Shown: positions 24,513 to 46,052 of the stretch, piece after piece
Numbering within the stretch: position 1 is the stretch's first letter
How the letters are laid out: every line of letters begins with the position of its first letter
DNA from: Motilibacter peucedani
GTDB lineage: Bacteria > Actinomycetota > Actinomycetes > Motilibacterales > Motilibacteraceae
Direction: 5' to 3'
DNA: 64,000 nt
Assembly: GCF_003634695.1 (NCBI RefSeq)
Contig: NZ_RBWV01000011.1
Coordinates: 248,001-312,000 of the forward strand
Position numbers and translations under genes: made by a program
Notes under the pieces: model-generated
Database searches by the model: none
What the model saw: only the letters and a program-made list of their open reading frames with translations
Told to the model about the DNA's origin: nothing

Positions 24513-24567
24513 TTGGCACGATGGGCCATCGTGACGGTCCTACCGTCACGATGGCCCATCCTGCCAA
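24513..24567. repeat. Long near-perfect inverted repeat (26-bp arms)
   Basis: Arms TTGGCA-C-GATGGGCC..GACGGT and the complement, with only one mismatched pair in 26 and a 3-base CCT loop. The inner 19 bp are perfect. Each arm also contains a smaller palindrome around CACGATG/CATCGTG. It lies between convergent genes and could be a bidirectional terminator, but it is longer and more exact than the other terminators here. It may be a copy of a dispersed genomic repeat. Confidence 0.8.
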
Positions 24568-24586: not shown

Positions 24587-25258
24587 TCAGGTCGTCGAGC
24601 CGCTCGCCGTGGGCGTCGGCGTGCTCGGCGTGGCGGGAGTGGCCGGCGTCGTGGGGGCGCTCGGCGCCGTGCCCGGACGCGAACCCCCGTGGCCGCCGCG
24701 ACCGCCACCACCGGCGCAGGTGGTGGTGACCTCCTGGGTGATCCGTGCGGTCAGGTCGGCCGACATCGAATCGGCCTGCGCCTGGGTCAGCGTGCCCGCC
24801 TCGACGGCCGCGGCGAGGCGGGCCTTCTCGGAGGCCACGAGCTTGGCGACCAGCGTGGACTGGCTGACGCCCTTGCCCTGCGCGACCTGCGCCAGCGTCT
24901 TGCCGCTGTCGAGCGCGGTGCGCAGGTCGTCGGCCGAGATGCCGATGACGCTCGCAGCGGTGTCGAGGTCGGCCCCGCGGCCGTGCCCGCCACCGGGACC
25001 GCCCAGCCCACCCGGGCCATGGTCGGGCAACGCGCTGCTCAGCGTGCTGGCCACCTCGTCGGCCTGCGTCTGCGACAGGGTGCCGTCGCTCACGAGGCCC
25101 TTGAGCGCGTCGGCGATGGCGCTCGCCCGACCGGTGAGCGCCGAGGTGCTGGATGTGGCGGCCGAGGCTGCGGTGGGGCCGAGGACGGCGCCCACCCCCA
25201 GCCCGGCGAGCCCGACGGCACCTGCGAGGACGAGGCCGGATGCCCGCGTCGACTTCAT
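24587..25258 (-). CDS. Small exported Gly/Thr/Pro-rich protein of the flavin locus
   Basis: Predicted secreted protein of 223 residues, family not named. Signal peptide (hydrophobic run ending ASAATSS). The mature part has two similar helical units, DGTLSQTQADEVASTLSSAL and EAGTLTQAQADSMSADLTAR, separated by a Gly-rich stretch and ASVIGISADDLRTALDSGKT. The tail is PT-repeat rich (TTPATPATPSTPTPT). ATG with AAGGAG 6 bases upstream. Last gene behind reductase, FMN protein and ApbE, so a surface role linked to that redox system is possible. It has no cysteine pair or metal motif. Proteins of this build are common and unassigned in actinobacteria. Confidence 0.8.
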   Translation of the reverse strand: MKSTRASGLVLAGAVGLAGLGVGAVLGPTAASAATSSTSALTGRASAIADALKGLVSDGTLSQTQADEVASTLSSALPDHGPGGLGGPGGGHGRGADLDTAASVIGISADDLRTALDSGKTLAQVAQGKGVSQSTLVAKLVASEKARLAAAVEAGTLTQAQADSMSADLTARITQEVTTTCAGGGGRGGHGGSRPGTAPSAPTTPATPATPSTPTPTASGSTT

Positions 25259-25380
25259 GGAGGACTCCTTCTGACGAGGGCGGCCCCCGCGGTGGGCGCC
25301 GCTGCTCCCCATGGAGCGGCACGCGGCTGGACGCTCGCTGTGGCCGCGCTGCCACGGGCCTGTGGCTGGCTGTGAGCCGT

Positions 25381-26199
25381 CTAGCCGAGGACGCGCGCGA
25401 GCGGCACGGTCCACGGGCGAACCCGTCGTCCGGCGACCTGGCGGCTGCTGATGAGCGAGCCGTCACCGCGTACGAGCAGGACCTGCGTCGCGGCGGGCGC
25501 CAGCCACGACAGCGAGTCGACACCACCGACGTACGCGGCGGTGGCGTAGACGTCGGCCCAGAGCAGGCTCGGCGCCAGCACGGTCGCCGACAGCACCTGC
25601 TGAGCAGCGGGCCGGCCGGTGCGCGGGTCGACGATGTGCGCGCCGCGGTGCGCCGCGCCGGAGGTGGCGACCGCGCCGTCGGAGAGGGCGAAGGTACGCA
25701 GGGTGCGCGCCGGGTCGCGCGGGTCCTCGATCGCGACCTGCCAGGTACGCCCCTCCTCTGCGCGCAGCACGATGTCGCCGCCCGCGTTGACCAGCCAGTC
25801 GCTCCCCCGAGCCGCCTCGCGCAGCCGTTCTGCGGCCCGCTCGACGGCCCAGCCCTTGACCAGACCGGAGGGGTCGAAGCCGCCGGGGAGCTCGGCGTCG
25901 AAGGCGCCGTGCGTCCGCCTGCGCGCCTCGTCGCAGAGCTCGAGGACCTCGGCCATCTGCGCCGAGGGCACGGGCGCCTCCCCGCGGCGGCGGGCCATCA
26001 CCTCGCTGTCGTCGCGGTAGGTGCTGAACCGCGCGTCGGCGCGCCGGAGCTCGGCGTAGAGGTCGGCCACCGCCTGCTCCACCGTGCCCGAGCCGGCGTT
26101 CTCGCCGCGCACGTGGACGCTGACGGGCAGGCCCATGACCTGCTCGACCCACGCGCGGCGCGGCAGGTGGGCGGCGGGGACCTCGAGCAGGGCGGTCAC
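25381..26199 (-). CDS. apbE: FAD:protein FMN transferase (ApbE)
   Basis: Flavin transferase of 272 residues that moves FMN from FAD onto a Ser/Thr of target proteins, needing Mg2+. Family marks: FSTYRDDSEV near residue 54, FDPSGLVKGWAVERA (KGWA-type), NAGGDIVLR and the C-terminal ADVYATAAYVGG region. No signal peptide or lipobox is visible, so the catalytic side is not clear from sequence. GTG start one base after the stop of the FMN-binding protein gene, which encodes its probable substrate. Slightly short for the family but all domains are present. Confidence 0.92.
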   Translation of the reverse strand: MTALLEVPAAHLPRRAWVEQVMGLPVSVHVRGENAGSGTVEQAVADLYAELRRADARFSTYRDDSEVMARRRGEAPVPSAQMAEVLELCDEARRRTHGAFDAELPGGFDPSGLVKGWAVERAAERLREAARGSDWLVNAGGDIVLRAEEGRTWQVAIEDPRDPARTLRTFALSDGAVATSGAAHRGAHIVDPRTGRPAAQQVLSATVLAPSLLWADVYATAAYVGGVDSLSWLAPAATQVLLVRGDGSLISSRQVAGRRVRPWTVPLARVLG

Positions 26200-26200
26200 G

Positions 26201-26701
26201 TCAGCTCCCCAGGTGCGCGGCGTCGAGCGCCGACTGGAGCGAGCTGATGTAGCCGTCGCTGGTGACGGTCGCGCCGCCCACGGCGTCGATCTGGGCGCTC
26301 TGCGCCGCGATGACCTCGTCGTGCAGCAGCGGCAGGGCGTAGGAGTTGATCTCCTGGTCACGGCCGTTCTCGGTCGGGTAGACGACGGCCTGGACGTCGG
26401 TCACCGCGCCGTCCTTGACGGTGACCTGCACCTGCACCGGACCCCACCGCGTGTCCACGGACTCGCCGGTGAACGTGCCGGACGAGCTGGTCGAGCTGGT
26501 CGAGTCCGAGGACGCCGACGCCGACGCCGACGCCGACGGCGCCGGGTCGGTGGCGGGTGTCGTGGCGGTGCTGGCGGTGCCGGGAGTGGCCGGAGCCAGG
26601 GCGGCGGCCTGGGCACCGGAGGAGCTGGTGCTGGTGTGGTAGGAGAACAGCAGCACCAGGGCTGAGACGGTGGATGCGAACCACAGGGTCACGCGACGCA
26701 C
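26201..26701 (-). CDS. Exported FMN-binding domain protein (covalent flavin carrier)
   Basis: Membrane-anchored protein of 166 residues. An N-terminal helix (TLWFASTVSALVLLFSY) is followed by a long Ser/Ala/Thr linker, which includes a tandem SASASASAS run from hexamer DNA repeats, and then one FMN_bind domain. The domain carries VGGATVTSDGY, which matches the flavinylation motif in which ApbE attaches FMN to the Thr. GTG start with GAGGAGG 6 bases upstream. It sits between the reductase gene and apbE, which fits a chain from membrane reductase to extracellular flavin. Confidence 0.92.
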   Translation of the reverse strand: MRRVTLWFASTVSALVLLFSYHTSTSSSGAQAAALAPATPGTASTATTPATDPAPSASASASASSDSTSSTSSSGTFTGESVDTRWGPVQVQVTVKDGAVTDVQAVVYPTENGRDQEINSYALPLLHDEVIAAQSAQIDAVGGATVTSDGYISSLQSALDAAHLGS

Positions 26702-26756
26702 GGGGGGACCTCCTCGGAGGTGGGGAAGGGCGAGTGGAAGGAGAGCTGCGGGCGGG

Positions 26757-28177
26757 TCACCAGGCGAACCGCTCCTCGTGCACCCTGCGGCGCGGCACGC
26801 CGGCCTCGCGGGCCGCGCTCGACACGGCTTCCGCCCAGGCGGTCGGGCCGCAGACGTAGACCTCCGCCTCGGCGATGTCAGGCACGATCCGGCGCAGCGC
26901 AGTGGCACCCCCGAGGGAGGCGTACTGCCGCGGCAGCCACGACCCCTCCCCCGCGCGAGGCCCGACCAGCGGCACCACCCGTACGCCACGGGCGGCGGCC
27001 AGCGCCTCGAGCTCGGCGCTGAAGAGCAGGTCGTCGGAGCTGCGGGCGCGCACGACCAGAGTGGTACGCCCTGGTGCGTCTATCTCCTCGAGCAGCGCCC
27101 GCAGCGGCGTGACTCCCACGCCGGCACCCAGCAGGACCACCGGGCGGGCGGTGTCGGTGCGCGCCTCCGCGGTCAGGCGGCCGTACGGGCCTTCGAACAG
27201 CACCCGGGTCCCCGGCCGCAGGCGGGCGGCGCGGGCGCTGCCGTCACCGGCGTCGGCGATGGTCACGCGCAGGAGGCGCGGGTGCGGGGCCGCTGAGAGC
27301 GAGTACGGGTTGCCGCGCGACCAGCCGGGCCCGTCGAGGAAGCGCAGGGTGAGGAACTGCCCGGCCCGGGCGCCGAGCCGGTCGAGCCGGTGCCCGCCCA
27401 GGTGCACCGACACGACGCCCGGCGCTTCGGTCACGACCCGCACGACGCGGAGCTGGTGGCGCCACGAGAGCCACAGCGGCGTACCGACTCGGAAGACGAG
27501 CACCGCCGCGGCGGCGGCGACCCACAGCGACCACCAGTAGGTCCGCGCCCACGCCGACGAGACGAAGTCGGTGCCGGTCCAGACCTGGTGCGGGAGGGCC
27601 AGGCCGACGCCGAGGTAGGCGTAGAGGTGCAGCAGGTGCCACGACTCGTAGCGCAGCCGGCGGCGGGCCATCCGGATCGAGGTCACGGTCACGAGCACGA
27701 CGAGCAGCGAGCCGGCGGCAGCGAGCAGCATGCCGGGGTAGGTCCATACGAGGTTCCAGAGCTCGCCGAGCACGTTGCGGCTGTCACGGCCGCGTAGCCG
27801 ATCGTGATGAGCACGACGTGGGCCAGCATCAGGTTGAACGAGGTGAAGCCGAGCAGCCGGTGCCAGCGCGCGAGCCGGTCCTGGCCCCAGGTGCGCTCAG
27901 CCCACGGCAGGCGAGCCAGCATCAGGCACTGCAGCAGCAGCAGGTCGGCGGAGACGAGGCCAGTCACCCGCCCGAGCGAGGTGAAGGCCGGCGCGGTGCC
28001 TGCGGTGACGTCCTGCAGGCCGCGGTTGGACAGCCACAGCGCCACCACGTAGACCACGCTGAGCAGAGCGGCCACGCCGACGACGTCGCCACCGAAGCCG
28101 CGGCGAGGAGCCGTGCCGGCTGGAGCCGGCGCGGGGAGCAGGGGAGCCGGTCGCACGGCGTCGTCCGTCATGGTCAT
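26757..28177 (-). pseudogene. Ferric-reductase-like transmembrane flavocytochrome, split by a frameshift
   Basis: Two reading frames together make one ferric reductase/ferredoxin-reductase-type protein of about 470 residues. Frame 1 (from ATG 28177) gives N-terminal helices with WHRLLGFTSFNLMLAHVVL (two likely haem His). It runs to about 27785 and then into a nonsense tail ending at 27689. Frame 2 (about 27780 to 26757) gives SWHLLHLYAYLG with two more His, the FAD motif RGNPYSLSA and the NAD motif GAGVGVTPLRALLEE with YVCGPTAW. One base appears to be missing near 27776-27790, around GTGACAGCCGC on the minus strand. The frame-2 GTG at 27773 has no ribosome binding site. Either the gene is broken or the sequence has an error. 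The intact protein would pass electrons from NAD(P)H across the membrane. Confidence 0.8.
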
Positions 28178-43594: not shown

Positions 43595-45989
43595 TCACCC
43601 CTGCTGCGCCCAGTCGCCGAGTGCCCAGTCGCGGACCTCCGGCATGTCCTCGAGGTGCTCCACCACGTAGGCCTCGTGCTCGGCCAGCTTGGCCTCGCAC
43701 CACGCCTTCAGGTCGCTGGCTCCCTGCGGCAGCCGGCGGGCGTTGTTGAGCGCGTCGATGACCAGGTGGTATCTCGAGGCCTTGTTGCGCACCACCATGT
43801 CGAAGGGCGTGGTGGTCGTGCCCTCCTCGATGAACCCGCGGACGTGGAAGCGGTCGGCGTCGGGCCGGCCGTGCACGAGCTGGTGGATGGCCCCCGGGAA
43901 GCCGTGGAACGCGAAGACGACGTCCTTGTGGTCGGTGAACAGCTCGCGGAACGCCATGGCGTCCATGCCGTGGGGGTGCTCCCGAGGGCGGCGCAGCCGC
44001 ATGACGTCGACGACGTTGACCACACGGGTGCGGAAGCTGGGCAGGTGCTCCTCGAGGATCTGCGCCGCCGCGACCGTCTCCATGGTCACCACGTCACCCG
44101 CGCACGCGAGGATGATGTCCGGGTCGGTCGTGCCGTCGTCGGTGCCGGCCCACTGCCACATGCCGGCGCCCTTGGCGCAGTGCTCGACCGCGTCGTCGAT
44201 GGAGAGCCACTGCAGCTGCGGCTGCTTGTCGATCACGATGAGGTTCACGTAGGACCGTGAGCGCAGGCAGTGGTCGGCCACCGACAGCAGGCAGTTGGCG
44301 TCCGGCGGGAAGTAGATGCGCGAGACGTCCGAGCGCTGGGTCAGCGCCACCTGGATGAGGCCGGGCCCCTGGTGGGAGAAGCCGTTGTGGTCGTTGCGCC
44401 ACGCGGTCGAGGTCAGCAGGATGTTGAGGCTCGGCACCTTGGCCCGCCACGGCAGGTGCGCCGCCTCCTCGAGCCACTTGCCGTGCTGCACCGTCTGCGA
44501 CGCGCTCACCATCGCGAAGGCCTCGTAGGTCGCGAACATCCCGTGCCGGCCGGTGAGGGTGTAGCCCTCGAGCCAGCCGTGGCAGTTGTGCTCCGAGAGC
44601 ACCTCCATCACGCGGCCGTCGTGGCTCAGCGCGGTGTCGTCGTCGTGCACCTCCTCCATGAAGGCGCGGTCAGAGGCCGCGAAGACCGGTCCGAGCCGGT
44701 TGCTGTTGGTCTCGTCCGGGCAGAAGAGCCGGAACCGGTCGCCGTTGGCGCGGTAGACGTCGCGGAGCATCTCGCCCAGCCGACGCGTCGACTCGGCCTT
44801 CGTGACAGCCGGCTGCGCGACCTCGATCGCGTAGTCGCGGAAGTCCGGCAGGTCGAGGTCCTTCGTGAGCACCCCGCCGTTGGCGTGCGGGCTGGCGCTC
44901 ATCCGCAGGTCGCCGGCCGGCCCGAAGCCGAGGACGCCCTCCACCGGGCGCCCGGTCTCGTCGAAGAGCTCCTCCGGGCGGTAGGAGCGCAGCCACTCCT
45001 CCAGCAGCTTCAGGTGCTCCGGGTTGTCGCGCGCCGGAGAGCGGGACCTGGTGCGAGCGCCAGGTGCCGGTGACCGTGACCCCGTCGACCGTCTGCGGGC
45101 CGGTCCAGCCCTTCGGCGAGCGCAGCACGATGAGGGGCCAGCGCGGCCGGGTGCCGTCCCAGTCACCGCCGCGGGCGGCCGCCTGGATGGCGGTGATGCG
45201 GGAGTACGCGGTGGCCAGCGCCTCCGCGAAGCGCACGTGCATGCCCGGCAGGTCGGAGCCCTCGACCTCGATCACGTCGTAGCCGTGTCCCTCGAGCAGC
45301 CTGCGCACCTCCTCCCGGGGCTTGCGGCCGAGCACCGTCGGGCCGGCGATCTTGGCGCCGTTGAGGTGCAGCACGGGCAGGACCGCCCCGTCGCGCGCGG
45401 GGTTGATGAACGAGACGCCCTTCCACGAGCCCTCGAGCGGCCCGGTCTCGGCCTCGCCGTCGCCCACGACGGCCAGCGCGAGCAGGTCGGGGTTGTCCAT
45501 CACGGCGCCGAAGGCGTGCACGAGCACGTAGCCGAGCTCGCCGCCCTCGTGGATGGAGCCGGGCGTCGTCACCGACACGTGGCTCGGGATGCCGCCGGGC
45601 GAGGAGAACTGGCGGAACAGCCGGGTCAGGCCGGCCTCGTCCTGCGTCACCCGCGGGTAGGTCTCGGTGTAGGTGCCCTCGAGGTAGCCGGCGGCCACCA
45701 GAGCGGGGCCGCCGTGGCCGGGTCCGGCGAGGTAGACGGCCTGCTGGCCGGTGCGTGCGATGAGCCGCGAGAGGTGCGCGTAGACGAACGAGAGGCCCGG
45801 GCTGGTGCCCCAGTGGCCGAGCAGCCGCGGCTTGATGTGCTCGGGCGACAGCGGCTCGCGCAGGAGCGGGTTCGCCTGCAGGTAGATCTGGCCGATGGTG
45901 AGGTAGTTGGCGGCGCGCCACCACGCGTCGAGGGTGGCGACCTCGTCGTCGGTGATGGTCGCGAGGTCCTGGTCGAGCGCTGTCGTCAC
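43595..45989 (-). pseudogene. xfp: Phosphoketolase (xylulose-5-P/fructose-6-P), single frameshift
   Basis: Thiamine-diphosphate enzyme that splits xylulose 5-phosphate or fructose 6-phosphate to acetyl phosphate and an aldose phosphate. The N-terminal frame (GTG 45989, GGAGG 8 bases upstream) reads AWWRAANYLTIGQIYLQANP, GHGGPALVAAGYLEG, VVGDGEAETGPLEGSWKG through TGTWRSHQVPLSG. The C-terminal frame resumes RDNPEHLKLLEEWLRSYRPE and runs to YVVEHLEDMPEVRDWALGDW. The switch needs one extra base in the GCGCGC run near 45028-45034. The total of about 797 residues equals a normal phosphoketolase, so the break is recent or a sequence error. No slippery heptamer is seen. Confidence 0.85.
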
Positions 45990-46052
45990 TGTCGCGTCCT
46001 CCGCTGGCGTCGTCGGGGAGTGCACCGTTGCACCACCACTCTGGCCCGGGCA

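Follow-up and report, generated by a model that had tools for sequence, protein, structure and literature searches.

Which redox system is encoded by the flavin genes of Motilibacter peucedani, and can it operate as found? In the window, a 64,000-nucleotide stretch of this genome, three tightly packed genes on the minus strand (25381–28177) follow one another in the order cytochrome, FMN_bind, ApbE. The coordinates are listed in Table 1. We conclude that the cluster is very probably an actinobacterial 'MsrQ-like' flavinylation operon, which would move electrons outward to an external, covalently bound FMN.

Table 1. Positions of the features discussed in the text, with supporting matches.
Feature	Position	Strand	Evidence
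Flavocytochrome, N-terminal part	27689..28177	-	PF01794 positions 1-63, 33.2 bits
Flavocytochrome, C-terminal part	26757..27773	-	PF00175 33.5 bits; PF01794 positions 66-119
Net one-base loss (frameshift)	27773..27787	-	Comparison with all relatives
FMN_bind protein	26201..26701	-	PF04205, 41.9 bits (Pfam)
ApbE, FAD:protein FMN transferase	25381..26199	-	PF02424, 140.6 bits
Small exported protein	24587-25258		
Inverted repeat	24513-24567		
Phosphoketolase (XFP)	43595-46004	-	
Net one-base frameshift in phosphoketolase	45020-45033	-	

The operon belongs to a published class

The 'MsrQ-like' class is defined by the presence of PF01794 in a flavinylation cluster, often together with PF00175. Méheust et al. 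(2021, PMC8238504) counted 1797 such clusters in 1468 genomes, mainly of Actinobacteria, and 1437 of the 1797 had a NAD-binding domain. The cluster studied here has the PF01794 cytochrome with a PF00175 domain, FMN_bind and ApbE in common with these. Its PF01794 gene lies at most five genes away from ApbE or FMN_bind. ApbE has a PF02424 match over the cut-off and the catalytic segment, and one flavinylation gene product, the FMN_bind protein, carries an export signal in the form of a hydrophobic N-terminus (maximum mean hydropathy 2.02 over 15 residues). The operon is a real yet ordinary copy of a known class, and adds one member to a group already recorded from over a thousand genomes. An earlier sequence-only reading had proposed an extracytoplasmic, ApbE-dependent redox module. 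It named the class correctly, and both its FMN_bind and its ApbE gene carry the expected Pfam domains; its suggestion of extracellular electron transfer is poorly supported, as discussed below.

The GTG start codon of apbE is immediately 3' of the FMN_bind stop codon. A consensus scan for promoters and terminators gave none. The 4.19 Mb genome contains a single FMN_bind match, and the relatives of the FMN_bind protein are actinomycetes. Of 80 loci, 76 have FMN_bind next to the cytochrome and 37 have ApbE within 4.2 kb. The same cytochrome-FMN_bind-ApbE order is seen in an annotated operon on a Streptomyces goshikiensis plasmid. It recurs on the Microbacterium plasmid pNx66, where the genes encode a VIT protein, ferric reductase, FMN-binding protein, ApbE, histidine kinase and response regulator. 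A sensor kinase and response regulator accompany about 30 of the related loci, whereas we recognised no two-component system next to the operon here. Some genomes have multiple cytochrome-FMN_bind modules, namely Winogradskya consettensis (L015, L019 and L034) and W. humida (L016, L035 and L059).

The flavocytochrome is split between two reading frames

The sequence-only reading described a ferric-reductase-like flavocytochrome. The Ferric_reduct and NAD_binding_1 domains are indeed present but are divided between two frames rather than forming one intact gene; this frameshift had been overlooked. The upstream part encodes the first transmembrane helices of Ferric_reduct, with candidate haem ligands in ARWHR and AHVVLIT, and is out of frame past ~27787. 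The downstream part encodes the remainder of Ferric_reduct and the FAD/NAD-binding reductase domain, with further candidate ligands in WHLLHLYAY and LPHQ. According to a codon-usage HMM, coding moves from one frame to the other at 27786/27787, and the old frame has no nearby stop codon. The cytochrome is unbroken in all 78 testable relatives, drawn from 79 related actinobacterial loci, and is also in one frame in the sister species (G001). The C-terminal part is 70% identical to that of the sister species and 54–65% identical to those of the 79 loci. A programmed frameshift was rejected because none of the relatives shares it.

We consider that the frame break is probably a sequencing or assembly error, and possibly a real, recent mutation. 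The scan with the codon-usage HMM found a second frame switch in the window: an ordinary phosphoketolase gene changes frame at about 45030. One frame holds XFP_N positions 2-307 and another holds positions 309-363. In two family genomes, the homologous genes stay open over 812 and 836 amino acids (81% identity). With two one-base losses in a 64 kb stretch, errors in the assembled bases seem the likelier cause. Alternatively, the strain is losing the module and its flavocytochrome has become a true pseudogene. We regard this as possible: the frame is shifted here while the relatives are intact, and ApbE is present in four of the five family genomes but the cytochrome and FMN_bind in only two. 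Conversely, we found no other disabling change in either half of the gene, and the phosphoketolase frameshift points to base errors. With the cytochrome frame broken, the module may be non-functional in this strain. This bears on any deletion phenotype, and argues for caution in using the strain for the deletion tests proposed with the sequence-only reading.

A proposed path for electrons

A cytochrome of this class is expected to have six helices and two haem sites; its reading frame is broken here and unbroken in the sister species. Histidines 108, 122, 183, 186 and 199 are invariant among 78 sequences, in agreement with a predicted role in haem ligation. We modelled the intact cytochrome of the sister species from an alignment of 40 sequences (mean pLDDT 82.3). 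The best fold match of the model was SpNOX, the NADPH oxidase of S. pneumoniae (8QT6), with a fit over the whole length (TM 0.68/0.79). Both have a membrane haem domain fused to an FNR-type reductase, at about 16% identity.

The domains, gene order, conservation, frame break and invariant histidines can be read directly from the DNA. For cofactor content, direction of electron flow and acceptor, we infer the following. In the intact relatives, NAD(P)H would reduce the FAD of the cytosolic reductase domain. Two b haems, held in helices of the ferric-reductase/NOX type, would carry the electrons across the membrane. The electrons would then pass to FMN, attached by ApbE to the threonine of the DxxSGAT motif in an FMN_bind protein that is predicted to be held outside by its N-terminal helix. 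The final acceptor may be iron in some lineages, and possibly oxygen or another envelope oxidant. Three features weigh against this picture for the present strain: the broken cytochrome frame, the variant target motif and an ApbE that lacks an export signal.

The predicted flavin carrier has a variant target motif

The FMN_bind protein consists of an MRR-type N-terminal hydrophobic anchor, a linker rich in Ser, Thr, Ala and Pro, and the FMN_bind domain. The GGATVTS segment, which had been proposed as the ApbE target, is present within DAVGGATVTS. It departs in one respect from the published motif, D-x-x-[S/T]-G-A-[S/T] (PMC12052999): position 4 of DAVGGAT is G rather than S or T, while the Asp and the acceptor Thr are both there. 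Among 76 relatives, position 4 is S in 70 and G in two. The sister species likewise has DAVGGATVT. The closest solved FMN_bind domain is that of the Streptomyces azureus protein SaFMN3 (8P2A; phmmer 1.4e-19), which has been shown to bear covalent FMN. SaFMN3 has three FMN domains, compared with one in the protein here.

Residues 2 and 3 are RR in 63 of 68 relatives and KK, KR or RK in the other five. The N-terminus is a strongly hydrophobic helix in which FLK-type residues do not follow the RR pair. Export of the FMN_bind protein by the Tat route is not favoured.

The actinomycete ApbE proteins screened do not have an evident signal peptide

A lipoprotein or secretion signal is typical of ApbE, if not universal. 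The ApbE encoded here has neither; no more than about 20 residues precede the conserved domain, and there is no hydrophobic N-terminus. The H-I-V-D-P-x-T-G and AD..AT segments align with those of solved ApbE proteins. Using an HMM-based screen we collected about 109 ApbE frames from actinomycetes; 41 of them belong to cytochrome-linked loci and 68 to a class-wide sample that is non-random and includes a few duplicates. For each, we scored the hydropathy of the 60 upstream residues, with a threshold of 1.6. None of the roughly 109 frames had a signal-peptide-like upstream segment by this measure, which would miss weak Tat-type signals (Cupriavidus ApbE scores 1.37). The only value over the threshold (1.61) came from this genome's distant second ApbE, for which we judged the upstream sequence to be non-coding. 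As positive controls, the ApbE proteins of E. coli, Leisingera and Ruegeria scored 1.99 to 2.49. ApbE proteins without a signal are also present on plasmids from other phyla. The second, divergent ApbE-like gene of this genome (G000:C13:386387-386779) encodes no visible signal peptide.

The apparent mismatch of compartments, between a transferase without an export signal and a substrate that is exported, spans the class. The simplest reading would be that flavin is attached before export. It is quite possible that actinomycete ApbE acts in the cytosol in this way, flavinylating the FMN_bind protein ahead of its export, and a target motif that is short and linear is compatible with this. In Klebsiella, a cytosolic ApbE without a signal serves a soluble cytoplasmic target. 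The published work on ApbE considered here mostly concerns secreted enzymes, and asks how FAD gets to them. If true, the cytosolic route would need no export of FAD, unlike the usual arrangement with a secreted lipoprotein ApbE outside, and would provide a clean, testable difference. In the literature covered, mostly titles and abstracts, we found no mention of a signal-less actinobacterial ApbE or of Tat-linked flavinylation.

Candidate electron acceptors

One version of the proposed path names iron as the acceptor: the system would be an assimilatory iron reductase, in which the external FMN would reduce Fe(III) for uptake. This version is somewhat unlikely. Support comes from a VIT-family gene just upstream of the same operon on pNx66, from VIT-family matches at 4 of the 80 related loci (L034, L035, L058 and L065) and from VIT1 in 153 of the 1797 published clusters (PMC8238504). 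In addition, an apbE insertion mutant of B. breve is sensitive to ferrous chelators. However, a non-exhaustive scan of the window recognised no iron-transport gene beside the operon, and few relatives have one.

A second version names oxygen as the acceptor: the system would have an NADPH-oxidase-like or oxygen-scavenging activity, with electrons passing from the external FMN to oxygen. This version is unlikely. The whole-length match of the modelled fold to SpNOX is consistent with this, and the multi-FMN protein SaFMN3 is able to use dioxygen. Against it, FMN_bind adjoins the cytochrome at nearly all loci. NOX enzymes are not known to need a covalent flavoprotein partner, and SpNOX is not known to have an FMN_bind partner.

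Extracellular electron transfer of the Listeria FmnB/PplA type, as suggested in the sequence-only reading, is very unlikely: an ApbE-type transferase and an external flavoprotein are shared, but the published definition demands that the cluster encode a membrane NADH dehydrogenase, and the ORFs and Pfam content of this cluster include none, with a putative b-type flavocytochrome in its place.

A small exported protein is encoded beside the operon but does not belong to it

The sequence-only reading had counted four genes in one operon. The cytochrome, FMN_bind and ApbE cluster is real, but the fourth gene, for a small exported protein 122 bp past apbE, falls outside the module. None of the 79 related loci contains a match to it. 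The sister species carries the cytochrome-FMN_bind-ApbE set and the exported protein's homologue on separate contigs, C1 and C2 respectively. Three further family genomes keep the exported protein and have no cytochrome or FMN_bind matches. Hence, we rejected this protein as an operon member; it is an unrelated neighbour.

The family of the small exported protein is found in all five family genomes, with varying neighbours. A paralogue in the same genome adjoins genes for a response regulator and a TypA-like protein (names read from sequence). Repeated segments of the LTQ(A/S)QAD type, weakly DUF2680-like, occur in the protein encoded here and in that at G000:C11:417206-417790. Between the small exported protein gene and a convergent TetR-like gene is a near-perfect 26-nt inverted repeat with a 3-nt loop and without a T run. 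Its arm pair is found once in the genome, and the repeat is possibly a bidirectional terminator.
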